Origin: a virus
Virus record (IMG/VR): IMGVR_UViG_3300025687_000279
Span: 1 to 26,094 of that record
Strand: one strand, 5' to 3'
Length of the DNA stretch: 26,094 bases
Shown here: piece by piece, positions 430 to 25,881 of the stretch
Position numbering within the stretch: position 1 is the first letter of the stretch
Layout of the letters: each line of letters starts with the position of its first letter
Translations under genes and position numbers: made by a program
Notes under the pieces: generated by a model
Told to the model about the DNA's origin: nothing
Seen by the model: only the letters and a program-made list of their open reading frames with translations
Database searches by the model: none

Positions 430-780
430 TTAGTGAGTTCCCGTCCAAGCGACACGGCCAGACCAAGTCTCGGGCTTTTCAATGTAAGCACGAAGGAAGT
501 TGGTCGCGGGCGCTTTGAAAGACGCAGCCTTGAGAATCGCACCCTTGGGGAACTTGCCGTCCTTGTTACAGATGAAAGAGTGAACAGATTCGACAACACC
601 CTTCTTGGTCTTCACGACCTTGATGTAGGTCGAACCAGGCTGAAATTCAATGTCGAATTCAGCAATCATTTCCTGAACATGCGGCTGAGAAGCCTTAGCA
701 CCCCACCACTTGATGTAGTCGGCCTTGATATGCTCGGCATACTGGTTGAGAAGCGAAACGGGAACATTGAAGCTGGGCAT
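430..780 (-). CDS. conserved hypothetical protein, 116 aa
   Basis: The protein starts MPSFNVPVSLLNQYAEHIKA and is a soluble mixed alpha/beta sequence with the core YIKVVKTKKGVVESVHSFIC, followed by a lysine-rich stretch. There is no signal peptide or membrane segment. I do not recognise the family with confidence. It is the first gene after the strong dyad promoter (-10 at 807-812, -35 at 830-835), which points to early expression. The ribosome-binding site is a purine run (GAGAGAGA) rather than a perfect Shine-Dalgarno. Its GC-rich codon use differs from the AT-rich structural genes further right. Function unknown. Confidence 0.75.
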   Translation of the reverse strand: MPSFNVPVSLLNQYAEHIKADYIKWWGAKASQPHVQEMIAEFDIEFQPGSTYIKVVKTKKGVVESVHSFICNKDGKFPKGAILKAASFKAPATNFLRAYIEKPETWSGRVAWTGTH

Positions 781-804: not shown

Positions 805-861
805 TAGATATGGGGTTGGACAGTCGGTTTTTCAAGATCAGATTACGCATATCAGCTATGC
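805..861 (-). promoter_or_regulatory. dyad-type promoter copy 1
   Basis: Minus strand reads GCATA-GCTGA-TATGC (847-861), then 11 bp, TTGAAA (830-835), exactly 17 bp, then CATATC (807-812). The layout is nearly identical to the copies at 1140-1194 and 25803-25867. The upstream dyad is a perfect interrupted palindrome with a T-N11-A arrangement, typical of LysR-type sites, and it overlaps the stop codon of the 63-aa gene. It should drive the 116-aa, 44-aa and YNGW-family genes. Confidence 0.75.
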
Positions 862-1047
862 ACGGGCCGCAGCCCTGCCCTTAAGACCAAGTTTACGCAG
901 CGTAATCTGCTTCCGACCAGCGTTGAAAACAGAACCACGGTCGTTACGGAAAGTCCGTTCGCTCTTTTTGGGCTTGCGATACTGACCGACAGTGATACAA
1001 CCACCACGCTCAAAATACGCAATAATCATCTGATTGAGATTTTGCAT
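856..1047 (-). CDS. small basic conserved phage protein, 63 aa
   Basis: I take the start at 1045-1047 (MQNLNQMIIAYF), preceded by AAGGTG at a good distance. An in-frame extension to 1137 would begin inside the promoter region and has no ribosome-binding site. The product is very basic (KPKKSERTFRNDRG, GRKQ, LKGRAAARA tail), consistent with nucleic-acid or protein binding. I know similar short proteins (FERGGxITVxxxRKPK) from phages and alphaproteobacterial mobile DNA, but without a function. It follows promoter copy 2, and its stop codon sits inside the upstream dyad of promoter copy 1. Confidence 0.65.
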   Translation of the reverse strand: MQNLNQMIIAYFERGGCITVGQYRKPKKSERTFRNDRGSVFNAGRKQITLRKLGLKGRAAARA

Positions 1048-1139
1048 TACGACACCTTGAAGTTGTAGCGAGGAAGGGGACCGATGAAGAATCGGTAGAG
1101 GGAACGAAGGAAGGGAATGTGTCTCATCATCATACACTA

Positions 1140-12781: not shown

Positions 12782-15700
12782 TTACTTCCTTCTGCAACGC
12801 CAGCGTCTCAATGAAGCTGCTTTACGAGTTGGTCTACCCTTCTTGTCTTTCATTGGACCTGGCATTCCGCTCATTCTTGCACAGAATGATTTGCGTCTTG
12901 CTTTTCTTTTTGGTCCTGGATTTGGTTCTGTTACTGCTGTCTGAACACCAAACTTCTTTGCACCTTTTGCTGTTAGACCTGCGCCGCTTTCTGTTGATCT
13001 GTAAAGACCTTTTGAATCTGCACCGCGTTCATTTAGTTGCTGTTCTTGAACCGTCTTCATTGATCTGGATGTTGATATATTGTAATTTTTTCCACCCAAT
13101 TCTTTGTTTTTTCCTAAATCTTGAGATGTTATCTTCTCTTTATATGTCTGTGTGCCGCTTGGTGTTTTTTGTATAGATTTATTTACTATAGTTTCAGTAC
13201 CACGACTAAAAGGGTTTTTGGTCTTCTTTACATAAACTGAAGAATTGTAATTGCCGTTACTCTCACGACCGCCTTGATAGTTTACTGTAGGAACATTTAT
13301 CTCATTCACATCATCTTTGCGCTGAGTTGGAATTGGACTTAGATTATTGACACTACCTTCCATACCTTCACGCAGCTTCTTGATAGATTTCTTTTCACTG
13401 TGACTGCAACCACAACCAGCCTCTTCTAATCTCAAAGCAGCTTCAACAAGTTTTTCTTCCCAAAGATTGCCGTACTTATCTGCAAACTTCTGTTGTGTTC
13501 TTTCTGATTGCATCCAGCTTACGATACTCTCTGACAATCCCATAGAGTATGCGCTACCATATCCAAAACCGTATGGTGTGCCTGCTCTTGGTACACCTAT
13601 TGTTGGACCAATACCATCAGCACCAAAAACATAACCACCCTGTACAGATGCTTCCGAAGCTTCTTGACTTAGTTTCTTTTTCTTTTTTTGACCCGGTGTC
13701 ATACCACGATAAAGATTATCTAATGAATCTGTTGCAATTTGTCTTTCACTTGGCTTATTGCCGTTTGCTTCTGCGAACTTTTCAAAAGCTTCGTTAGCAG
13801 GAACGCAGTTAGGTACTTTACGGCCGTTCTTTTTCTTCATGCCGACCATCTCGTAGCCTTTCCAGCACGGATCGTTCTTCTTCATCTTCTTTTCTTCGTT
13901 CATTGTTTGAACCCTTACTAATTGACCACCCTTACTATGATACATGACTTTGTTTACACCACCAACTTTGCGACCAAAGCGACCAAATCCATAATATGAC
14001 AATCCAAGTCTTCTAGCCTGAAGCATTAGATCATTATCTGGTTTATGAACAACTTTTGGAACGCCTTGACGAATTTGTGTGAGACTCTTATATCTCTTTG
14101 GCTCTTGATATGTGATGCCGCGCTTCTTTGTTTCAGCTTCAATCCACTTTGCAGCGGTTGGGTTTTTGTTCTCAGCACGAACAAACTGTTGAGCCATACG
14201 ACGAACACGATTAAAGTTGGTAAGAACTTTTGCTTTTTCTTCTGGACCAACTTTACGAATATCTGCTGTGTTATCAATAACAGTAAACTTTTCATTACCA
14301 AATATCTTTTGAAGTTCACCGATATTCTTCTGTGCTAAATCCCACTTCTCTTGACGAATGTTAGGTGAGTTGTCTGGATTACCTTGCTTGTCAGTACCAT
14401 CTGGAACTTTACGCTTACCCATCTTACCGCGTTCAACATTACGCTCACGCGATACTTCATTGGATGTGTTTACGAATACCATCATAGTTTCGTAACCATC
14501 ACGTTCAAGTTCACCCTTGATCTTTTTTATTTTCTCTAGATCATCTGCGGTACCGTTGATGATTAGACCAAGACGACCTGCTAGTGCTAGACGCTCTTGT
14601 TCCTTTGTAATGTTCTTCGCACGACCACGAACAATGTCACGCTCAACTCTTTCTTCATCTGGCATTTCAAGGTCAAGGCCGTTCTTCTGCATTAGATATT
14701 CAAATGCAACATCGGAATTGATTTCTTTCAATCCTTCTCCTGCAAGAGTTGCATTCATCACATAGTCTTTACCTGATCCTGGACCACCAGCTAAGAAGAT
14801 AGCTTTAAGTTTGCCAGGATCGTTGATTCCCTCTTCTAGTCTCTGCCCTATGTTTGGATTTATATTAAGAGTTTTTATTTTTTTTTCTTTTCCGCCCATT
14901 CTCATTTTTATTGTGTCTGTTTTAGATCCAACATATCTGTTTGGATCGGATCTTTTATTGACCACAGGAGTGTTTGATCTAAATTTGTTAGGATCAGCAT
15001 TAGGTATTCTTGGTTCTGGATCTAAAGTTGCGCCAGGTCTTACAAAATGTTGACGAAATTCTTTATCTTGTCTCTTCGCTTCAAGATTTTTTGCGAGTTC
15101 TTGAGAAGCAGGAGATGCCATTGTAATTTCATTCAATTGTTCTTTGATTGTTTTTAAACTTTTCATTGCTCTGCCTTTATACTCTTTTTTGCCTTTATAG
15201 TCCATCCAAGAATTATCAATACCGTCATCAACCCAAAGTCCTGATGTGTTATTCTTTATTTGATTTGTATATGATTGATTGTTTAAAACATACTGAGATG
15301 TTACTGTAGGCGAAACTTCACCTGTCACATTACCTAGACCACGTATACCACTAACTGGTGCTAGTGCTGCTGAGTTTGTTGATTCTACAACATAACTCTT
15401 GCTGAACATATCTGGATTAGATTTAGCGAACCAACGCATGATCTTACCTGCTTCCGCATTTGCTTCGTTCTCAATGTCTGAACCTGTCTCACCTTCTTTT
15501 GCTATATCTTTACCGAGACGACCATCTTCATTCTGCTTGTGATGCACAAGTTCATGTGCAACAGAACGAAATATATCCATTGGATGACGATTTGCTGTAC
15601 ATATAGAAAGTTCATTTGATGAGGGATTGTATGCAGCAAATGAGTTGTAGTCATCATCATTTGTCTTGTATCTGACAGTAGGCATTGATTTGAGACCAAG

Positions 15701-16396
15701 CTTGTCAGAAGCAAATGATACAAATGAATCAAGCATAGGTGCTAGTTCTTTGCGAGTGACTTCTTCTTTTAACTGCTTTATTGTTTTAGGCTTCTTGAGC
15801 ATTGCACCAATCTTATCATTCATTAGCTTATGAACAGATGCATTATACTTGCCAAACAAGTCCTTGATGAAAGCTTTTTGCTTCTCATCATTCAAGGAAA
15901 CAAACTGCTTACGTAGTTCTGAGGCCGATGTTGCTGGTTTGCCTAATACATCAAACGTAAATGTAGGTGTGACAATGACATATCCTTTTGGCATCATTGT
16001 ATCGCCAAACGGCTTTAGCTTCTTTTCGTTGCCTTTGTATGGTTGAAGATAGCCTGGTTTGCCAGATTTAGTTGGCTTGAATGAAAATCTAGGGTCTTCT
16101 TCCATGTCTTTTTGCGACACAGCAAATACCAAAACCGTAGTCTTGGGATCGTACTGTCTGAGTATTTCTCTGGCTATGTAGGGATTTGTGACTTGTTGAA
16201 TATCACTAGATGGCACACCAGCCAACATCATCATTCGTTTCTTCTCGGCGAAGTTGAATGGACTTTTTGGTGCTTCTACTTTATCTGAAGTGGCAATGAC
16301 TGCATCGCCAAACTTGTTTTTTAACCACTGATAGACCTGAGCGTGACCCTTATGAAATGGTTGAAAGCGCCCAGGATAAACTGCTAAAATTTTCAT
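12782..16396 (-). CDS. 1204-residue multidomain cargo protein (nucleotidyltransferase, metallopeptidase, P-loop kinase, basic tail)
   Basis: Domains in order: 1-195 HxGH nucleotidyltransferase (GRFQPFHKGH 9-18; SASELR 157-162); 215-340 metallopeptidase-like (HELVH, H281/E282/H285, with a possible third ligand in ENEANAE 309-315); 530-740 P-loop kinase (GGPGSGKD 537-544; Arg-rich SRERNVERGK). Then a CWKGYEMVGMKKKNGRKVPN block (844-863), a SESIVSWMQSERTQQKFADK block (954-973) and a basic Cys-containing end (KSFCARMSGMPGPMKDKKGR, DUF6321-like). Motifs resembling the T4 capsid-targeting peptide with L-x-E recur at 203-211, 414-423 and 1113-1123. This suggests fused cargo modules, possibly released by the prohead protease. 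A hairpin (16402-16430) abuts its ribosome-binding site. Confidence 0.85.
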   Translation of the reverse strand: MKILAVYPGRFQPFHKGHAQVYQWLKNKFGDAVIATSDKVEAPKSPFNFAEKKRMMMLAGVPSSDIQQVTNPYIAREILRQYDPKTTVLVFAVSQKDMEEDPRFSFKPTKSGKPGYLQPYKGNEKKLKPFGDTMMPKGYVIVTPTFTFDVLGKPATSASELRKQFVSLNDEKQKAFIKDLFGKYNASVHKLMNDKIGAMLKKPKTIKQLKEEVTRKELAPMLDSFVSFASDKLGLKSMPTVRYKTNDDDYNSFAAYNPSSNELSICTANRHPMDIFRSVAHELVHHKQNEDGRLGKDIAKEGETGSDIENEANAEAGKIMRWFAKSNPDMFSKSYVVESTNSAALAPVSGIRGLGNVTGEVSPTVTSQYVLNNQSYTNQIKNNTSGLWVDDGIDNSWMDYKGKKEYKGRAMKSLKTIKEQLNEITMASPASQELAKNLEAKRQDKEFRQHFVRPGATLDPEPRIPNADPNKFRSNTPVVNKRSDPNRYVGSKTDTIKMRMGGKEKKIKTLNINPNIGQRLEEGINDPGKLKAIFLAGGPGSGKDYVMNATLAGEGLKEINSDVAFEYLMQKNGLDLEMPDEERVERDIVRGRAKNITKEQERLALAGRLGLIINGTADDLEKIKKIKGELERDGYETMMVFVNTSNEVSRERNVERGKMGKRKVPDGTDKQGNPDNSPNIRQEKWDLAQKNIGELQKIFGNEKFTVIDNTADIRKVGPEEKAKVLTNFNRVRRMAQQFVRAENKNPTAAKWIEAETKKRGITYQEPKRYKSLTQIRQGVPKVVHKPDNDLMLQARRLGLSYYGFGRFGRKVGGVNKVMYHSKGGQLVRVQTMNEEKKMKKNDPCWKGYEMVGMKKKNGRKVPNCVPANEAFEKFAEANGNKPSERQIATDSLDNLYRGMTPGQKKKKKLSQEASEASVQGGYVFGADGIGPTIGVPRAGTPYGFGYGSAYSMGLSESIVSWMQSERTQQKFADKYGNLWEEKLVEAALRLEEAGCGCSHSEKKSIKKLREGMEGSVNNLSPIPTQRKDDVNEINVPTVNYQGGRESNGNYNSSVYVKKTKNPFSRGTETIVNKSIQKTPSGTQTYKEKITSQDLGKNKELGGKNYNISTSRSMKTVQEQQLNERGADSKGLYRSTESGAGLTAKGAKKFGVQTAVTEPNPGPKRKARRKSFCARMSGMPGPMKDKKGRPTRKAASLRRWRCRRK

Positions 16397-20329: not shown

Positions 20330-20420
20330 TGGCGGAAGGAGTGGGATTCGAACCCACGGTACCTGATTAGGGTACGCCTCGTTAGCAGTGAGGTGCCTTC
20401 GGCCTCTCGGCCATCCTTCC
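20330..20420 (-). tRNA. tRNA-Ser(GCT)
   Basis: 91 nt with encoded CCA, discriminator G, and a long variable arm as expected for serine. Anticodon loop CTGCTAA; T-loop TTCGAAT. The last tRNA of the array in transcription order. Confidence 0.95.
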
Positions 20421-20424
20421 TATA

Positions 20425-20874
20425 TTATTCTGTAATCTCTATATATGTATTATACTTGCCGTATTCGTTTACGATGCGGTACAACCAACGAGCATTCTGA
20501 GGGCTAAGACGAATACATCCATGTGATGCGGGTTGACCAAGCTTCTTTACTTCTGTTGTCGCATGAATTGCATAACCACCATGAAAGAAGATAGAATGAG
20601 GCATCGGCGCATTATTATATTTGGATGAATAGTGCATCGGCCTTAACAGATAAGGCTGAAACACACCAGTCGGAGTACGATATCCCTTACGACCGGTAGA
20701 AACGTCCCACTCAAAATAGTCAGTAGGTGTTTCTACATACATCTTCTGATCGGACTTGTCAATCCGAATAATCACTTCATGCTCACCAAGCGGCTCAACA
20801 CCAGCTTTAGCACCGTTAACAAGCATAAAGATTGCAGCAGTCATCACTGTCAACATAACAAAAAACTTAGTCAT
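20425..20874 (-). CDS. secreted L,D-transpeptidase (YkuD family)
   Basis: Periplasmic enzyme that forms or ex-changes 3-3 peptidoglycan crosslinks or attaches proteins to the wall. A signal peptide is clear: MTKF plus a hydrophobic stretch FVMLTVMTAAIFMLVNG and a predicted cut after AKA (residue 24). The catalytic signature is complete: H104 in YAIHAT, then S117-H118-G119-C120-I-R122 with nucleophile C120. 149 aa, a single-domain form. It lies in the tRNA array, not in the lysis cluster. It could modify the wall during infection, for example to delay lysis or exclude other phages; that role is inference. Confidence 0.9.
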   Translation of the reverse strand: MTKFFVMLTVMTAAIFMLVNGAKAGVEPLGEHEVIIRIDKSDQKMYVETPTDYFEWDVSTGRKGYRTPTGVFQPYLLRPMHYSSKYNNAPMPHSIFFHGGYAIHATTEVKKLGQPASHGCIRLSPQNARWLYRIVNEYGKYNTYIEITE

Positions 20875-20875
20875 T

Positions 20876-21373
20876 TTATCCTACCTTCACTTGTGGAATA
20901 TGTTGAATTGCGTCCTTGTACCTGTCAGCACAGTAAGATGCTGCCCAAGCATTTGGCTTCACTAGAGGTACCACATTACACATACCACGAATGTAACCAA
21001 CAGCTTCATTTATAACACAAGATGAACCGTGTTTCAAGTCAGGATTGATGTCCAGATGAATTTCAAAGTCACGTTCGCCAATTGCTTCCTCAAGGTCGAG
21101 GTACAACTGCGCTGTCTTCATCACTTCATTCATCAGACGCATACGTGGCTTGTCCTTCTGCTGATCATAGTCACGCTCACGCATAACGGAACCAAACACA
21201 CGACAGCCGTTCTTGCCGTTCTTATGAACAACGACAACGTTGATGTAGTCAGCCATCCAAACGCCATTCAACTGAAAGCGTTCTGAGTCGCCACCTAGAT
21301 ATACTTTTGTTTCCTTAGATTGTGCTTGAATGAATGCACGAACTTCGTCTAAATCCATATTCTTTCTAATCAT
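20876..21373 (-). CDS. RNase H-like protein of the YkuK family
   Basis: The sequence shows GGDSER near residue 27-32, a central VVVHKNG, the acidic EIHLDINPD block and a C-terminal KPNAWAASYCAD. This is the pattern of the uncharacterised YkuK/DUF458 RNase H-fold family, so a nuclease acting on RNA is plausible, but activity is unproven. 165 aa. The start is ambiguous: the ATG at 21371-21373 overlaps the end of the YspA-like gene, while the ATG at 21356-21358 is better spaced from AGAAAG. The stop is one base from the L,D-transpeptidase ATG side of the junction. Confidence 0.82.
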   Translation of the reverse strand: MIRKNMDLDEVRAFIQAQSKETKVYLGGDSERFQLNGVWMADYINVVVVHKNGKNGCRVFGSVMRERDYDQQKDKPRMRLMNEVMKTAQLYLDLEEAIGERDFEIHLDINPDLKHGSSCVINEAVGYIRGMCNVVPLVKPNAWAASYCADRYKDAIQHIPQVKVG

Positions 21374-21707
21374 TTATTTTCACAACTGGGATACCAGCTG
21401 ACTCCGCTAAGTTAATCATCATTTGAGTGCCTTTACCACCTGGAAAAGCTATTACCAAATCTGGTTTGCCTTCATTCAACATTTGCACATTGCGAATGTA
21501 TCCTGCTCTTTTACCATATTTATTCCAATCAGCAGGATAATTCTTGAACTCAATACCATTGTCAACTGCCCAGATTTTGGCCAGATCGTCTGCTCCTCTA
21601 GCAGAACCTTGAATGATGATATTGTCTTTTGAAGCATAAGGCTGGAGTGCCTTATTAAGGAGGGCTCTGTTATTGAAGTCACGGCCGCCGCATACTAGAA
21701 TACGCAT
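21366..21707 (-). CDS. YspA-like SLOG-family protein (DUF2493)
   Basis: Rossmann-like nucleotide-sensing domain: MRILVCGGRDFNNRALLNKA, then IIQGSARGADDLAKIWAV and VIAFPGGKGTQMMI. These are the three conserved blocks of the cpYpsA/YspA SLOG family, which bind nucleotide-derived ligands and often accompany defence or NAD/ADP-ribose metabolism. 113 aa, typical length. The ribosome-binding site and ATG lie in a 17-base sequence (ATAGGAACTTAACAATG) that recurs on the opposite strand at 25729-25745. It overlaps the YkuK-like gene. Confidence 0.85.
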   Translation of the reverse strand: MRILVCGGRDFNNRALLNKALQPYASKDNIIIQGSARGADDLAKIWAVDNGIEFKNYPADWNKYGKRAGYIRNVQMLNEGKPDLVIAFPGGKGTQMMINLAESAGIPVVKIND

Positions 21708-21723
21708 TGTTAAGTTCCTATAA

Positions 21724-21797
21724 TGGTGCCTCTATCCAGAATCGAACTGGAGCCAATCCCCTACCAAAGGATTGTTCTACCACTATACTATAGAGGC
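21724..21797 (-). tRNA. tRNA-Thr(GGT)
   Basis: 74 nt, encoded CCA, acceptor GCCTCTA/TAGAGGC, anticodon loop TTGGTAG, T-loop TTCGATT. Confidence 0.93.
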
Positions 21798-21803
21798 AGT
21801 GAT

Positions 21804-21888
21804 TGGTGCGGGTAGAGAGACTTGAACTCCCATGGATTACTCCGCTGGAACCTAAATCCAGTGCGTCTGCCAATTTCGCCATACCCGC
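21804..21888 (-). tRNA. tRNA-Leu(TAG)
   Basis: 85 nt with class II variable arm and encoded CCA. Acceptor GCGGGTA/TACCCGC, anticodon loop TTTAGGT, T-loop TTCAAGT. Confidence 0.93.
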
Positions 21889-21893
21889 ATTAA

Positions 21894-21968
21894 TGGTAGC
21901 CGCTGAGAGAATCGAACTCCCTACACCCTCGGTGTAAACGAGGTGTTCTACCAGTGAACTAAGCGGCT
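21894..21968 (-). tRNA. tRNA-Val(TAC)
   Basis: 75 nt, acceptor AGCCGCT/AGCGGCT, A73, encoded CCA, anticodon loop TTTACAC. Its 5' end overlaps the last codons of the heme oxygenase gene by 10 bases. Confidence 0.93.
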
Positions 21969-22456
21969 TTGATTTCGTTCATGATGTTTAGAAGGGCTTG
22001 AAAACAGTTTCTGGCTTCTACAATCACATCTTCGCGCTCTCTAAACTTTGTTAATTCTACTATTGCTGCTTTTCTATCTGACCATTCAAGATGACTGGTA
22101 GGATAGCCAACAAGTCTTCTACGCATTACTTCACCGCCCATCAAATGGGCACCTGTCAATACATAAGCTGAGCCAACGATATCTTTTTCCGTATTCAGTC
22201 TATTTACATAATCGTTAGCTGTGCGGATTATATTAACAGGACAGTTTGTATCTGTTAAGTCTTTTTGAACTTGTTCCGATCTGCGAATGATTTCTGGAAT
22301 GTGCTGATCTACAGTCCAGTGAATTGTGTACAAAGCAGAAAGCCAGTCTGCATACCATTGCATTGGTGGTTTTCCAGATGCCATAGCAGCACCTACTGGA
22401 TGTTCCTCACAAGCATGATGCAAGTCTCTTGTGCCTTCCCATAATGGTCCTGGCAT
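21959..22456 (-). CDS. heme oxygenase-like protein
   Basis: Predicted to open heme to biliverdin, releasing Fe(II) and CO. The proximal-His region is GTRDLHHACEEHP (H13 as ligand in the T-x3-H pattern). The flexible distal-helix glycines appear in GSAYVLTGAHLMGGEVMRRR. 165 aa, all-helical as expected. Heme oxygenases are known in marine cyanophages for pigment synthesis; in a presumed alphaproteobacterial phage, iron release or a bilin signal is more likely. AGGAG precedes the ATG. The stop codon (TAG) lies inside the tRNA-Val gene, so tRNA processing would cut the mRNA at its very end. Confidence 0.85.
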   Translation of the reverse strand: MPGPLWEGTRDLHHACEEHPVGAAMASGKPPMQWYADWLSALYTIHWTVDQHIPEIIRRSEQVQKDLTDTNCPVNIIRTANDYVNRLNTEKDIVGSAYVLTGAHLMGGEVMRRRLVGYPTSHLEWSDRKAAIVELTKFREREDVIVEARNCFQALLNIMNEIKAA

Positions 22457-22473
22457 ATTATCTCCTATAAAAC

Positions 22474-22567
22474 TGGAGGCCCGTTAGCTTGTCATGCAGC
22501 CTACTGGTTTGGAAACCAGCATCTGAACGACTTACCCCTCTAAAGGACTTCTATACCGCTACGGGCC
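22474..22567 (-). tRNA. aberrant tRNA-like gene A (no canonical T-loop)
   Basis: 94 nt with a perfect 7-bp acceptor (GGCCCGT/ACGGGCC), U73 and encoded CCA. The interior is odd: a 5-bp stem CTGGT/ACCAG closes a 6-nt loop TTCCAA, resembling a Gly(TCC) or Trp anticodon arm that has lost one base. A canonical TTC T-loop is missing; the equivalent place holds GCATGACA in an imperfect stem. It may be a decayed tRNA or a distinct tRNA-like RNA. Identity not assigned. Confidence 0.45.
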
Positions 22568-22583
22568 AAGAGCGGTTTCTAAA

Positions 22584-22757
22584 TTACATACCAGACATTA
22601 ATGATGTGATAGAATCAGAAATCCAGAGCCACCATGCTGCAAGTGCTGCTACGATAGCTGCTCCACCTTTCTTCATGTCCCAGCCGTTCTGCCACATTGT
22701 CCATAGAACCCAAAGCACGGCTGCAATCAAAACTAAAACTACGATTGTGTTTAGCAT
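22584..22757 (-). CDS. small two-helix membrane protein, 57 aa
   Basis: Start at 22755-22757 (MLNTIVVLVLIAAVLWVLWT) because GAGGT is seven bases upstream; an in-frame ATG 33 bases further out has no ribosome-binding site. Two hydrophobic helices (residues about 3-22 and 33-50, GAAIVAALAAWWLWI) are joined by a short polar loop (WQNGWDMKKG). It could be a holin-like or superinfection-exclusion protein; neither is supported by a motif. A CATAAATA late box lies at 22795-22802. It sits between tRNA-Gly and the aberrant tRNA-like gene. Confidence 0.7.
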   Translation of the reverse strand: MLNTIVVLVLIAAVLWVLWTMWQNGWDMKKGGAAIVAALAAWWLWISDSITSLMSGM

Positions 22758-22794
22758 TTGTATTACCTCATTTAGACCTTGATTGGTCAATGAG

Positions 22795-22802
22795 TATTTA
22801 TG
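22795..22802 (-). promoter_or_regulatory. T4-like late promoter box CATAAATA
   Basis: Minus-strand CATAAATA between the tRNA-Gly CCA end and the small membrane protein, about 37 bases upstream of its ATG. Confidence 0.4.
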
Positions 22803-22804
22803 AT

Positions 22805-22878
22805 TGGAGCGGGTAGCGGGAATCGAACCCGCGCATTCTCGTTGGCAACGAGATAAGCTACCATTACATCATACCCGC
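22805..22878 (-). tRNA. tRNA-Gly(GCC)
   Basis: 74 nt, acceptor GCGGGTA/TACCCGC, U73 as usual for Gly, encoded CCA, anticodon loop TTGCCAA, T-loop TTCGATT. Confidence 0.95.
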
Positions 22879-22881
22879 AAT

Positions 22882-22957
22882 TGGTGCGTCTTCCAAGTTT
22901 CGAACTGGGTTGTTCGGCTTATGAGACCGATGAGATTGCCAACACCTCCCAAGACGC
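22882..22957 (-). tRNA. tRNA-Met(CAT), elongator or Ile2
   Basis: 76 nt, acceptor GCGTCTT/AAGACGC, A73, CCA, anticodon loop CTCATAA. The G1-C72 pair and lack of GGG/CCC in the anticodon stem exclude a normal initiator. A lysidine-modified Ile2 cannot be excluded. Confidence 0.9.
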
Positions 22958-22962
22958 ATTAA

Positions 22963-23038
22963 TGGTGCTGCCTCTCTGAATCGAACAGAGTCCCCACGCT
23001 CTTCAGGCGCATGTACGCACCAGCTATACCAAGGCAGC
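22963..23038 (-). tRNA. tRNA-Phe(GAA)
   Basis: 76 nt, acceptor GCTGCCT/AGGCAGC, A73, encoded CCA, anticodon loop CTGAAGA, T-loop TTCGATT. Confidence 0.95.
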
Positions 23039-23044
23039 GTTTAT

Positions 23045-23191
23045 TCAATCACGAAGCAACTGAGGAGCTGATTCCGTCAAGTTCTTCTTTTCGTATTCTT
23101 GTAGTTTAGCAGAGTATTGTTCGTTTGACAACCCATGCCAACCAATACACTTACCAGTTGGACTACGACCACAACCACAATCTTTAGACAT
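23045..23191 (-). CDS. CDGSH-like mini-protein, 48 aa
   Basis: Short gene between tRNA-Ser(TGA) and tRNA-Phe, starting at 23189-23191 with GAGGA upstream. The N-terminus MSKDCGCGRSPTGKCIGWHG has three Cys and one His (C5, C7, C15, H19) in an order close to the CDGSH [2Fe-2S] motif C-x-C-x2-S-x3-P-x-C-D-G-S-H, one residue shorter. The rest is a charged helix (NEQYSAKLQEYEKKNL). It may bind an iron-sulfur cluster or zinc. I have seen CGCGRSPTG-xC-xGWH in short alphaproteobacterial and phage proteins, but know no function. Confidence 0.65.
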   Translation of the reverse strand: MSKDCGCGRSPTGKCIGWHGLSNEQYSAKLQEYEKKNLTESAPQLLRD

Positions 23192-23207
23192 TTGCTTTCC
23201 TCTTGTT

Positions 23208-23295
23208 TGGCGGATAGGGTAGGATTCGAACCCACGGAACCGTTAAGTTCTTCGGTTTTCAAGACCGATGCGATAGACCACTCTGCCACCTATCC
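23208..23295 (-). tRNA. tRNA-Ser(TGA)
   Basis: 88 nt, long variable arm, G73, encoded CCA, anticodon loop CTTGAAA, T-loop TTCGAAT. Confidence 0.95.
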
Positions 23296-23333
23296 AAATT
23301 CGCTCCGATTTCTTAAAGTGGTTACGGCCTCCA

Positions 23334-23362
23334 CTATTATGTTAACGAGAGTTTCCAGTCAA
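23334..23362 (-). promoter_or_regulatory. candidate promoter TTGACT-17-TAATAG
   Basis: Minus-strand TTGACT (23357-23362), 17 bp, TAATAG (23334-23339), 39 bases upstream of tRNA-Ser(TGA). Weaker -10 than its neighbour at 23429-23457. Confidence 0.4.
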
Positions 23363-23428
23363 GTACAGTCCACTCACAAACCTCTAGCTGCGGGATGGCG
23401 GAACGCATTACTTGCCGCCACGATGTAT

Positions 23429-23457
23429 ATATTAGACTGTATCCCACATATTGTCAA
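23429..23457 (-). promoter_or_regulatory. sigma70-type promoter TTGACA-17-TAATAT
   Basis: Minus-strand TTGACA (23452-23457), 17 bp, TAATAT (23429-23434), directly after the RlpA-like stop codon. It should re-initiate transcription of the distal part of the tRNA array. The leader contains a GGCGG/CCGCC hairpin. Confidence 0.65.
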
Positions 23458-23459
23458 GT

Positions 23460-23822
23460 CTATCTTTTCTTCTTCTTTCCTAAGATTTCAACCTTGACTG
23501 TGCAAACTCCACCGCAGCCGATCTTTCTAGCGGCTGCTCTTGATAGGTCTAATTGTCTACCCTTGATGAACGGGCCCCTATCATTAATTACTACTATTAC
23601 CGATCTTCCTTTGTGTGTAACTCTCAGTCTTGTGCCAAAAGGCAATGTCTTGTGTGCTGCTGTTAAAGCATTTGGATTGAATTTTTGCCCGCTTGCAGTA
23701 ATCTTGCTTTTACTACATTCGCCAGGCTTGACGCAATCATACCAAGATGCTACCATTGTTGTAGCATTACTGGGTGCTGTCATTAAAAAAAGGACAGCAA
23801 AGGCTGCTATTAATAGTTTCAT
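23460..23822 (-). CDS. RlpA-like secreted double-psi beta-barrel protein
   Basis: 120 aa from the ATG at 23820-23822, preceded by AAGGAAAA. The signal peptide MKLLIAAFAVLFLMTAPSNA is followed by a domain with ASWYD, SGQKFNPNALTAAHKTLPFG, RVTHKGRSVIVVINDRGPF and the catalytic-type Asp in QLDLSRAAARKIG. These match RlpA/DPBB lytic transglycosylases acting on denuded glycan. Extra Cys pairs (CVKPGEC; CGGVC) could form disulfides in the periplasm. No lipobox, so soluble. Together with the L,D-transpeptidase it is the second exported wall enzyme in the tRNA array. Confidence 0.88.
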   Translation of the reverse strand: MKLLIAAFAVLFLMTAPSNATTMVASWYDCVKPGECSKSKITASGQKFNPNALTAAHKTLPFGTRLRVTHKGRSVIVVINDRGPFIKGRQLDLSRAAARKIGCGGVCTVKVEILGKKKKR

Positions 23823-23838
23823 TGTTGTTTTCCTTGTA

Positions 23839-23932
23839 TGGAGCATCTGACAGGATTCGAACCTGCATTAGGTACTTCTACCCATGTCCAGTTACCTTAC
23901 TCTCCGTTCGTAGCGGAGGGGGCTACAGATGC
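23839..23932 (-). tRNA. aberrant tRNA-Arg(ACG)-like gene B (no D-arm in usual place)
   Basis: 94 nt with perfect acceptor GCATCTG/CAGATGC, U73, CCA and a normal T-arm (TTCGAAT). A perfect anticodon arm CTCCG-CTACGAA-CGGAG gives anticodon ACG, but only 7 bases separate it from the acceptor, so there is no room for a D-arm. Instead 35 bases follow the anticodon arm, including D-arm-like text GGTAACTGG...TACC. It is the only arginine candidate in the array. Confidence 0.5.
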
Positions 23933-23938
23933 ATAGTT

Positions 23939-24013
23939 TGGAGGGGCCAACCAGATTTGAACTGGTACCTCAAGGATTTGCAGTCCCGCGCATTACCGTT
24001 TTGCTATGGCCCC
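23939..24013 (-). tRNA. tRNA-Cys(GCA)
   Basis: 75 nt, acceptor GGGGCCA/TGGCCCC, U73 as usual for Cys, CCA, anticodon loop CTGCAAA. Confidence 0.95.
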
Positions 24014-24018
24014 ATAAA

Positions 24019-24092
24019 TGGCTGCCCAGCATGGATTCGAACCACGATAGCCAGAGTCAGAATCTGGCGTCCTACCGTTAGACGACCGGGCA
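24019..24092 (-). tRNA. tRNA-Gln(CTG)
   Basis: 74 nt, acceptor TGCCCGG/CTGGGCA with U1-A72 and G73 as expected for Gln, CCA, anticodon loop TTCTGAC. Confidence 0.94.
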
Positions 24093-24097
24093 ATAAT

Positions 24098-24172
24098 TGG
24101 TACTGCATGGGGGAATCGAACCACCGTAACAGGTTTCACAGACCTGCGTCTTAGCCACTAGACTAATGCAGC
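24098..24172 (-). tRNA. tRNA-His(GTG), alphaproteobacterial form
   Basis: 75 nt, anticodon loop CTGTGAA. The discriminator is A73, base pair 1-72 is G-U, and the base before G1 is T, so there is no encoded G-1 opposite C73. This departs from most bacteria and matches the unusual histidine tRNA known from alphaproteobacteria. Confidence 0.94.
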
Positions 24173-24173
24173 A

Positions 24174-24251
24174 TGGAAGCGGGAGCAGGATTCGAACCTG
24201 CGACCTCTAGGATATGAACCTAGCAAGCTGACCTGACTGCTCTATCCCGCA
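24174..24251 (-). tRNA. initiator-like tRNA-Met(CAT)
   Basis: 78 nt. D-arm (AGAGCAG...AGCT) and variable loop (AGGTC) resemble initiator tRNA, and 1-72 is an unpaired U-U, the hallmark that blocks EF-Tu and marks initiators. However, the anticodon stem CTAGG/CCTAG lacks the full three G-C pairs, and position 73 is U. CCA encoded. Only one base separates it from tRNA-His. Confidence 0.8.
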
Positions 24252-24256
24252 ATATT

Positions 24257-24331
24257 TGGCAGCGCATAAGGGAATTGAACCCTTCTCTCCGGATTGAAAG
24301 CCCAGCATTCTGACCACTAAACTAATGCGCC
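24257..24331 (-). tRNA. tRNA-Glu(TTC)
   Basis: 75 nt, acceptor GGCGCAT/ATGCGCT (G1-U72), G73, CCA, anticodon loop CTTTCAA. Confidence 0.94.
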
Positions 24332-24336
24332 ATAAT

Positions 24337-24420
24337 TGGAGGACTGGGTGGGACTCGAACCCACGGTGTTTGCATAGCGGATTAAAAGTCCGCGCCGTTC
24401 GCCACTACGGTAACCAGTCC
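24337..24420 (-). tRNA. tRNA-Lys(TTT) with 12-nt variable region
   Basis: 84 nt, acceptor GGACTGG/CCAGTCC, U73, CCA. Anticodon stem GCGGA/TCCGC with loop CTTTTAA. The variable region is about 12 bases, far longer than the normal 5 for lysine tRNA, and U73 is not the usual lysine discriminator. Confidence 0.88.
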
Positions 24421-24473
24421 GTCTTTGTGTAGTGCGGCTTCATCTATGGACTATATGCTATGCAAGCACGAAT

Positions 24474-24547
24474 TGGCTGGGGAACGTGGATTCGAACCAC
24501 GACCGGAAGTTTCAAAGACTTCTATCCTACCTTTAGATGATTCCCCA
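24474..24547 (-). tRNA. tRNA-Gln(TTG)
   Basis: 74 nt, acceptor TGGGGAA/TTCCCCA (U1-A72), G73, CCA, anticodon loop CTTTGAA. The 53 bases to its left (24421-24473) hold nothing recognisable. Confidence 0.95.
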
Positions 24548-24554
24548 ATAAACA

Positions 24555-24654
24555 GGTGCGAGGAGAAGGATTCGAACCTTCATGGTGCCTGCGTGAGTTC
24601 ACGCTTTACGGCTACCCTCCTGCCGGATGCTTTTACCAGTTTCGCCATCCTCGC
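24555..24654 (-). tRNA. aberrant tRNA-like gene C (Leu-like ends, no clear anticodon)
   Basis: Perfect acceptor GCGAGGA/TCCTCGC, A73, a leucine-type D-arm (GGCGAAACTGGTAAAAGC) and a normal T-arm GAAGG-TTCGAAT-CCTTC. The encoded 3' end is ACCT, not CCA. Between D- and T-arms lie 46 bases with stems CGGC/GCCG closing a 9-nt loop AGGAGGGTA, and GCGTG/CACGC closing AACT. No loop has the required pyrimidine-T before an anticodon. Either a decayed or interrupted tRNA-Leu, or a tRNA-mimic RNA. Confidence 0.45.
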
Positions 24655-24657
24655 AAT

Positions 24658-24731
24658 TGGTTGGCCAGTAGGGAATCGAACCCTCATCGGACGCCTATCA
24701 AGCGCCTGCTTTACCATTAAGCTACAAGCCA
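24658..24731 (-). tRNA. tRNA-Ile(GAT)
   Basis: 74 nt, CCA encoded, A73, anticodon loop TTGATAG, T-loop TTCGATT. The acceptor stem has one U-U mismatch (6-67). The next 101 bases (24732-24832) contain a hairpin ACCGCC/GGCGGT and an AGAC-tatat-GTCT hairpin, but no gene I can name. Confidence 0.9.
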
Positions 24732-24832
24732 GTGAATTGTGAACCGTTTCGCTGGTCCCACTGAAAGGACGATCAACCCCGACAGACATATAGTCTCGGA
24801 CTTATATACCGCCACGGCCTACGGCGGTTACT

Positions 24833-24915
24833 TGGTGGGCAGGTGTGGTTACGCTCCACTCCCCTATGGACGGGTTTTACAGACCCGCTGCTGAAACTAC
24901 CAGCTTTACCTACCC
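24833..24915 (-). tRNA. tRNA-Tyr(GTA) with atypical T-loop
   Basis: 83 nt, acceptor GGGTAGG/CCTGCCC, A73, CCA. Perfect anticodon arm CGGGT-CTGTAAA-ACCCG. The T-stem GTGG/CCAC closes the loop AGCGTAA, lacking the universal TTC; the D-loop also lacks a clear GG pair in the usual setting. Amino-acid identity is clear, but tertiary D-T contacts would be abnormal. Confidence 0.8.
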
Positions 24916-24921
24916 GTTGTA

Positions 24922-24995
24922 TGGTGCCGCATGAGAGAATCGAACTCCCATCAGAGGATTACAAAGCCCCTGTATTGCCATTATACTAATGCGGC
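24922..24995 (-). tRNA. tRNA-Thr(TGT)
   Basis: 74 nt, acceptor GCCGCAT/ATGCGGC, A73, CCA, anticodon loop TTTGTAA (one mismatch closing the loop), T-loop TTCGATT. Confidence 0.92.
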
Positions 24996-25000
24996 GTTAT

Positions 25001-25075
25001 TGGTGGACCCTAAGAGAATCGAACTCTTACTTTCGCCGTGCAAAGGCGACATGCTCCCATTATCATCAAGGGCCC
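25001..25075 (-). tRNA. tRNA-Ala(TGC)
   Basis: 75 nt, acceptor GGGCCCT/AGGGTCC. The 3-70 pair is G-U, the alanine identity element. A73, CCA, anticodon loop TTTGCAC. Confidence 0.94.
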
Positions 25076-25080
25076 GTTAT

Positions 25081-25154
25081 TGGCACCAGTGCAAGGATTC
25101 GAACCCTGACAAGCAGTTTTGGAGGCTGCCGTGCTACCGTTACACTACACTGAT
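25081..25154 (-). tRNA. tRNA-Trp(CCA)
   Basis: 74 nt, acceptor ATCAGTG/CACTGGT, G73 as expected for Trp, CCA, anticodon loop CTCCAAA. Confidence 0.94.
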
Positions 25155-25160
25155 TTGAAT

Positions 25161-25237
25161 TGGTCCGGGCGGAAGGATTTGAACCCTCGACCCTCCGCTC
25201 CCAAAGCGGATGCTCTACCAGACTGAGCCACACCCGG
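25161..25237 (-). tRNA. tRNA-Pro(TGG)
   Basis: 77 nt, acceptor CCGGGTG/CGCCCGG (C1-G72), A73, CCA, anticodon loop TTTGGGA, T-loop TTCAAAT. Confidence 0.95.
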
Positions 25238-25308
25238 ATAACGGCTTTCGTACTGCGAGGGTGCCGTCAACCCTACCCAACTTCCCAAAGCGGGACAGGC
25301 GTACTAAA
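25238..25308 (-). other. spacer with tRNA-Pro-like relic
   Basis: 71-nt gap. It shares the 11-mer CCGCTTTGGGA with the adjacent tRNA-Pro anticodon arm and AAGTTGGGTA with the leader at 25606-25615. An ACGGC/GCCGT stem is possible. No complete tRNA fold, so perhaps a decayed tRNA. Confidence 0.3.
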
Positions 25309-25382
25309 TGGCGACCTATGCGAGGCTCAAACTCGCTTCTCCGCTTAGACAGAGCGGTGTGATATCCATTCACTAATAGGCC
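25309..25382 (-). tRNA. tRNA-Asp(GTC)
   Basis: 74 nt, acceptor GGCCTAT/ATAGGTC, G73, CCA, anticodon loop CTGTCTA. T-loop TTTGAGC has T in place of C56. Confidence 0.92.
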
Positions 25383-25387
25383 ATGAT

Positions 25388-25474
25388 TGGAGGACCAAGT
25401 GGGACTCGAACCCACGATGTGATTTCTCACGACAGATTAAGAGTCTGCTGCCATAGCCACTAGGCGACTGGTCC
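25388..25474 (-). tRNA. class II-shaped tRNA-Lys(CTT)
   Basis: 87 nt, acceptor GGACCAG/TTGGTCC, U73, CCA. Anticodon stem GCAGA/TCTGT with loop CTCTTAA. The variable region is 16 nt with a clean GTGA-GAAA-TCAC hairpin, a class II arm normally restricted to Leu, Ser, Tyr and Sec tRNAs. The D-stem is 3 bp, as in class II tRNAs. Confidence 0.88.
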
Positions 25475-25480
25475 ATGAAT

Positions 25481-25557
25481 TGGCTCCCGCCGCAGGAATC
25501 GAACCTGCCGTATGCTGATTAACAGTCAGCCGCTTCCACCATGTTAGCCTGACGGGA
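25481..25557 (-). tRNA. tRNA-Asn(GTT)
   Basis: 77 nt, acceptor TCCCGTC/GGCGGGA, G73, CCA, anticodon loop CTGTTAA. First tRNA transcribed after the structured leader. Confidence 0.95.
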
Positions 25558-25795: not shown

Positions 25796-25797
25796 CT
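25729..25797 (+). other. possible plus-strand mini-ORF sharing YspA start sequence
   Basis: ATAGGAACTTAACAATG here is identical to the ribosome-binding site and start of the YspA-like gene on the other strand. It opens an 18-codon frame (MSNSDRILSRAARINSSY). No convincing plus-strand promoter is seen, so I do not call it a gene. Confidence 0.2.
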
Positions 25798-25802
25798 AAT
25801 CT

Positions 25803-25867
25803 AATATAGTGTCTCAGGGTGCAGATTTCAAGTCTTCTCTTATTCTTTTTTCGCATATCTGCTATGC
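25803..25867 (-). promoter_or_regulatory. dyad-type promoter copy 3, driving the tRNA array
   Basis: Minus-strand dyad GCATA-GCAGA-TATGC (25853-25867), 21 bp, TTGAAA (25826-25831), 17 bp, TATATT (25803-25808). Same core as the copies at 805-861 and 1140-1194, but the dyad sits exactly one helical turn further upstream. Confidence 0.78.
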
Positions 25868-25881
25868 ACTGGACGCAACTC

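Follow-up and report, generated by a model that had tools for sequence, protein, structure and literature searches.

Host regulators and repeated promoters in phages

The middle promoters of phage T4 depend on the phage-encoded protein MotA, whose box replaces the -35 hexamer. They form a repeated class in T4-like genomes and work with host RNA polymerase, as the promoters described here would, but the latter keep their -35 and carry an extra palindrome at -61. The gtr genes under OxyR reportedly form a single operon with methylation-dependent phase variation, whereas the present case concerns a class of promoters found repeatedly in a phage of lytic type. OxyR, like the regulator proposed here a LysR-type host protein acting on phage-borne genes, is described as controlling gtr genes, those of phage P22 included (PMC2909390). 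In cyanophages, T4-like phage genes with Pho boxes are likewise under a host transcription factor, PhoBR (PMC10976474), although that system employs a response regulator and serves nutrient genes, whereas the regulator predicted here is of the LysR type. Several of the predicted cyanophage Pho boxes did not bind (PMC10976474), which is a warning for predictions such as the LsrB one made below. Phage genes under host regulators are already known from these examples (PhoB, OxyR), and a search of open-licence PubMed Central found no publication that connects LsrB or VtlR with promoters of phages.

The closest described counterparts of the promoters reported here are the LsrB/VtlR promoters of Rhizobiales (abcR1, nfeR1, DUF1127 genes and vrsA). 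The published VtlR/LsrB box reads GCAT-N3-TG-N3-T (PMC7486931) and is placed at -61 to -49 of PabcR1, above a sigma-70 core (PMC8844928); LsrB binds this promoter, and removal of the motif causes a more than 22-fold drop in activity (PMC7486931, PMC8844928). At PnfeR1, TGCA-N6-GCAT forms a T-N11-A box in which a point mutation abolishes LsrB binding (PMC10746234). A Brucella study (PMC12595884) describes DUF1127 genes as primary VtlR targets, and the lsrB locus of S. meliloti is laid out as a LysR gene, the AbcR pair and an ArsR-like gene (PMC8844928). The half-site and dyad, the distance to +1, a TTG -35, an ATAT -10 and the architecture on the target side are common to these promoters and those of the phages. 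The phage promoters differ in occurring several to a record, where a host genome has one or two at equal stringency, in having a dyad nearer to a perfect palindrome and a TTGAA -35, and in driving tRNAs and phage genes, with a variant placed one turn up.

Three predicted promoters in a T4-like phage fragment

The window, meaning the whole stretch of DNA analysed, is the 26,094-base IMG/VR record IMGVR_UViG_3300025687_000279, a piece of a T4-like phage genome. Its near DNA relatives among 50,697 phage records are short pieces at most; the terminase of a 167 kb relative (G001) is closest to those of Pelagibacter phage HTVC008M and cyanophages. For the window's RNR, the 20 best relatives in phages are all from phages of Alphaproteobacteria, which fits a reading in terms of LsrB/VtlR. 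The recognisable genes run on the minus strand, as do all 23 tRNA genes, which lie with small frames between them at 20330 to 25557, 3' of the third promoter. The array may hold one tRNA more, at 24557-24654 (minus strand), where an Rfam match of 37.5 bits is absent from the ARAGORN list. At 12782-16396, also on the minus strand, a protein of 1204 amino acids combines cytidyltransferase-like, ATPase-like and several other PHROG stretches in a single chain and has relatives in 29 viral loci.

The preliminary description named three sites sharing a dyad GCATA-N5-TATGC, the hexamer TTGAAA, a 17-bp spacer and a [CT]ATAT[CT] -10, with 11, 11 and 21 bp separating the dyad from the -35 downstream of it. 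Minus-strand coordinates bear out these distances, and the three cores are present as described, the window having no others of this form; sites 1 and 3 have an exact dyad, site 2 one with two mismatches. At site 1, the predicted activator element (845 to 877, minus strand, spanning -75 to -47) comprises a half-site at 875-869 and the dyad GCATAGCTGATATGC at 861-847, followed after a gap of 11 bp by the core promoter (807 to 835; TTGAAA 835-830, 17 bp, CATATC 812-807). The predicted +1 is at 800, positions of this kind being set 7 nt after the -10 from the ar15 start in host locus L127 and a conserved purine. The gene behind it (430 to 780, minus strand; 116 aa, DUF7717 / phrog_818) has its ATG 20 nt past this +1. 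Site 2, on the same strand, has its predicted element at 1179 to 1210 (half-site 1208-1202, dyad GTATGGCTGGTATGC at 1194-1180) and its core at 1140 to 1168 (TTGAAA 1168-1163, 17 bp, CATATC 1145-1140), with a gap of 11 bp, a predicted +1 at 1133 and an overlapping second dyad match (up to 2 mismatches) at gap 20. A leaderless mini-frame of 28 aa, MMMRHIPFLRSLYRFFIGPLPRYNFKVS (1047 to 1133, minus strand), begins at this +1 and ends in a stop codon overlapping the ATG with which a frame of 63 aa (856-1047) opens.

At site 3, also on the minus strand, the predicted element (25851 to 25881; half-site 25881-25875, dyad GCATAGCAGATATGC at 25867-25853) lies one helical turn further upstream than in sites 1 and 2. 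A purine-rich stretch of 21 bp, GAAAAAAGAATAAGAGAAGAC (25832 to 25852), separates the dyad from the -35 and shows few changes in the related phages (G001 115945 and G003 81873). The core follows at 25803 to 25831 (TTGAAA 25831-25826, 17 bp, TATATT 25808-25803), with a predicted +1 at 25796. On both strands of the window together, TTGAAA-N17-YATATY occurs three times, each time with a dyad (up to 2 mismatches, gap 5-30), and no composite site appeared in 200 dinucleotide shuffles. By itself, a dyad match with up to 2 mismatches says little: 18 were counted against 12.55 expected, and 8 of 100 shuffles reached 18.

A promoter class in viral contigs

The combined-motif search that had been suggested as a check was run on viral contigs, where it gave 41 stretches, and on 84,980 genomes, where it gave nine. 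Nearly all of the viral stretches have gaps of 11-12 or 21-22. When reduced to 33 distinct sites including those of the window, with gaps of 8-24 allowed, they fall at gap 10 (1), 11 (21), 12 (6), 21 (2) and 22 (3) and at none of 8-9, 13-20 or 23-24, counts to which a simple probability does not apply, the sites being partly related by descent. Gaps of 25-55 gave seven stretches: one sequence, with gap 42, accounted for four, the other three were singles, and all lacked the features of the class. A looser non-redundant set held 45 sites, and the 39 at gaps 11, 12 or 21 made the first logo, from which the six at gaps 10, 19, 20, 22, 22 and 33 were left out. Larger phage records carry several class promoters each, all oriented with the genes. 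A family search with eight proteins encoded behind the promoters found one DUF7717, one peptidase-named PHROG and nothing for the others.

There is next to no probability that this repetition reflects chance, or the plain duplication of one promoter, with no common binding protein. Sites of one phage lineage do share descent, which makes their counts non-independent, and the dyad by itself is not rare at two mismatches. However, the proteins downstream of class sites belong to many unrelated clusters, and spacers and flanks vary from site to site while the promoter elements are kept. A chance origin of the composite pattern was rejected by the absence of composite sites from the shuffled windows and by a permuted dyad, which in the same pattern gave 0 stretches in the viral contigs.

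The complete element and its phasing

The logo of 31 phage sites reads GCATANCWGNTATGC for the dyad at -61 to -47, with a half-site GNTATGC 22 bp above its second arm. Columns that had played no part in site picking are conserved as well, namely CWG at the dyad centre, the half-site G-N-TATGC and a C at -13. The position 7 nt past the -10 hexamer is always a purine in the phage sites, and in many of them an ATG stands exactly at this +1, which fits leaderless starts. A T at -71 is found in 97% and an A at -59 in 100% of the 31 sites, giving a T-N11-A centred at -65. The T-N11-A symmetry previously taken as a sign of a LysR-type protein is present in all three window sites, but it is not contained in the dyad to which it had been assigned, its T (-71) belonging to the half-site above and its A (-59) to GCATA. 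At several phage sites, strings like AAATCAA-N3-CTTAG or -TTTA stand directly above the half-site (G001 112615, 161149; G002 136446; G003 52195, 85033; G007 36400). Mini-frames of 27-35 aa with the common string LYRFFIGP begin with an ATG at the predicted +1; homologues of the one at 1047-1133 lie at dyads G001 148920, G003 42435 and 52195, G005 82009 and G007 26185, and a second class promoter follows about 130 bp downstream at several mini-frame places (L012, L022, L040, G001, G003).

A model of the activator element, R1, was built from 30 gap-11 phage sites over -78 to -44 only, with no core and no host sequence, gap-21 sites being left out of its training. Over 12 phage records (829 kb) its matches at E ≤ 1 numbered 78, often with both strands of one place counted; 45 rows were kept by taking the better strand per place, and removal of repeats left 41 distinct sites, some of which had trained the model. 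Sites 1 and 2 of the window, both training sites, scored 23.8 bits (E 3.2e-5 in the 829 kb) and 20.4 bits (E 4.0e-4), and site 3 was matched at 25851-25877 with 21.2 bits (E 2.1e-4). When the best core was sought over gaps of 0-40, it lay at gap 11 in 37 of the 41 sites, at 12 in one and at 21 in three. Sites with TATCTA, CATCTA, TTGTAA or TTGATA, which were outside the training, keep the same phasing. The idea of an activator working from a fixed helical face is supported, and such an activator would contact RNA polymerase.

A TTG-type -35, 17 bp (once 16) from the -10, is present at 40 of the 41 sites, so that a MotA-type placement of the box over the -35 is not seen. The hexamer begins TTGAA in 35 of the 40, and position -31 holds A at 35 sites and C at two. 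Published motifs are CTTGAC-N17-CTATAT for the sigma-70 core and CTTGAA-N16-CCTATAT for RpoH1; the -10 fits sigma-70, and the TTGAA -35 is also compatible with the RpoH1 consensus. The promoter with the longer gap is real at gap 21, but its three cases, in the window, G001 and G003, are one orthologous tRNA-operon promoter, and the variant has few independent cases. A gap-22 group (L006, L008 and L041, from their contig numbers presumably marine contigs) is a less certain and weaker second case, with an R1 score of just 12.8 bits. R1 missed the composite matches L027 (gap 10) and L032 (gap 22) at E ≤ 1, and these two may have arisen by chance.

The class is not a general habit of cultured phages of such hosts, since R1 gave 0 matches in phiM12, phiM9, P10VF, Atu_ph07 and HTVC008M, the first four of which infect rhizobia or Agrobacterium. 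A blast of the promoter consensus against the 50,697 phage records returned a single 18-base match (E 9).

Correspondence with host LsrB/VtlR promoters

Of the nine stretches with the composite pattern in the 84,980 bacterial and archaeal genomes, five (Paenibacillus, Bernardetiaceae, Rhodobacteraceae, Bacteroidales and Muribaculaceae) look like chance and four are from Rhizobium, with gaps of 10-12. Three of the four lie inside tandem ar15 (AbcR sRNA) loci, and in L127 the ar15 start falls exactly 7 nt past the -10. A LysR-type gene adjoins the tandem ar15 in both loci with frames listed, together with an ArsR-like gene judged by eye. The R. mayense stretch (L128) has a gap of 10 and no ar15, and the next frame resembles a small multidrug exporter (by eye).

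In a set of 50 ar15 loci collected by RNA homology alone, weak matches retained, the dyad (up to 3 mismatches) stands at -61/-62 in 41, 29 of them with up to 2 mismatches, against 1.0% at other offsets; without the three loci of G012, a genome found through the motif, it does so in 38 of 47. Phage and host logos agree in the box, the half-site, TTG at -35, ATAT at -11 to -8 and the +1. Gap-11 phage sites have GCAT at -61 and T at -49, the positions of the gap-21 promoter being 10 bp off. The published box fits site 1 on the strand of transcription and site 3 on the other strand only, and site 2 departs from it at one of 7 fixed bases.

R1 gave 86 matches at 76 places in 35 of 41 rhizobial-family genomes, with E-values that are modest at the scale of whole genomes. 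A match falls within 110 bp upstream of 13 of the 50 ar15 loci, against 0.003 expected, the other 37 having none in these genomes, and 12/12 same-strand matches at ar15 put the dyad at -61 or -62. An Rfam scan of 20 other R1 loci placed ar14 (NfeR1 family) on the same strand, downstream of the match, in 8; six of these have a dyad 55-115 nt ahead of the position where the ar14 model begins, and a DUF1127 gene is also present in 2 of the 8. The phage-only model hits three host classes, AbcR promoters, NfeR1 (ar14) loci and DUF1127 genes, and because these are the known LsrB/VtlR target classes the activator is likely LsrB/VtlR. The preliminary suggestion of a LysR-type activator encoded by the host gains support from both the AbcR promoter match and these target classes. 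One point against the LsrB reading is that AbcR2 of S. meliloti is RpoH1-dependent and that the pattern was first met at the second ar15 copy (L127-L130).

The strongest host matches of R1 in the 41 genomes, L189 (G151 C5:182688-182715) and L190 (G170 C1:1408091-1408120), have neither ar15 nor ar14 and may represent further LsrB targets. In other lineages, a scan of 30 loci around LsrB homologues yielded only weak R1 matches, 15 rows at E ≤ 0.5, of which four came from the R. phaseoli control. Some of these weak matches lie just beyond one end of an lsrB-like gene (L247, L258, L261, L262, L268, L271) and could perhaps mark LsrB-driven sRNAs there. We also considered nfeR1 as a case of the one-turn-longer register and rejected this, as TGCA-N6-GCAT corresponds to the upstream half-site plus the first dyad arm, in the same register as abcR1.

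The sites could instead be operators through which LsrB of the host, or a different host protein that uses this box, would repress or only modulate phage genes, or decoys that titrate LsrB. LysR proteins can act as repressors, and many sites on each replicating genome would titrate LsrB. However, the element lies upstream of the core, at the place from which abcR1 and nfeR1 are activated, and its strict phasing with the core would be needless in a decoy; we regard this explanation as very improbable.

Source of the proposed activator

The LysR helix-turn-helix domain (PF00126) was found in 0 of the 12 phage records, one of them of 167 kb and others possibly fragments, so the alternative of a phage-encoded LysR-type protein has lost support. 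By comparison, R. phaseoli gave 82 PF00126 matches, the best being the gene beside abcR. Searched with the LsrB protein, the phage records returned only a 12-bit match, in five records; a phage LsrB was rejected as its explanation, since the frame in G002 looks coiled-coil by eye. An alternative is a phage-encoded DNA-binding protein other than LsrB that binds the dyad and switches on a phage regulon, its site resembling the host box through convergence or through descent from a captured regulator. Repeated promoters of this kind are usually run by phage regulators, and most phage proteins here are without known function, in records that are fragments. We nevertheless think this improbable: besides the results with the LysR domain and LsrB, convergence on a host regulator's box, half-site, CWG centre and exact place is unlikely.

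Of 115 genomes of the Alphaproteobacteria, 62 encode an LsrB-like protein. The phages may infect cells without LsrB, which counts against the LsrB reading.

Proposed mechanism and implications

We consider it highly probable that these phages use host LsrB/VtlR as the activator of their promoters. Computation established the element, its strict spacing, the match to AbcR promoters and the recovery of target classes by a phage-only model. The phage would have copied or evolved promoters to be switched on by host LsrB (= VtlR), the redox-responsive LysR-type protein that activates the sRNAs AbcR1 and NfeR1 in Alphaproteobacteria. In the actual host, LsrB would occupy the upstream half-site (-75 to -69) and the palindrome GCATANCWGNTATGC (-61 to -47), with the T-N11-A pair of its element at -71/-59 and centred at -65. 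Once bound, it would recruit host RNA polymerase, in the manner of a class I activator, to the core TTGAAA-N17-[CT]ATATC, the polymerase possibly carrying sigma-70 or RpoH1. At the tRNA-operon promoter the whole element would be shifted one helical turn up, so that the same face is kept. Promoters of the class would serve many unrelated gene families, including the large tRNA cluster, and their likely use would be strong transcription early in infection, ahead of any phage regulator, a timing proposed because of the promoter type and the genes served. A more far-reaching version, which we hold to be doubtful, makes host LsrB the master activator of the infection programme of this T4-like clade, which would thereby read the oxidative state of the cell, with replicated boxes titrating LsrB away from the AbcR and NfeR1 promoters and lifting the sRNA brake on nutrient uptake.

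The proposal gives a repeated promoter class of an uncultured phage clade a named, testable host protein, and it indicates which hosts to look for, namely cells with LsrB/VtlR. The dozens of natural near-consensus sites sharpen a box known so far from few promoters, and the tRNA-operon promoter, with its site one helical turn up, amounts to a natural phasing experiment. The expression of phage genes would be linked to a regulator with roles in both symbiosis and virulence among rhizobia and their relatives.
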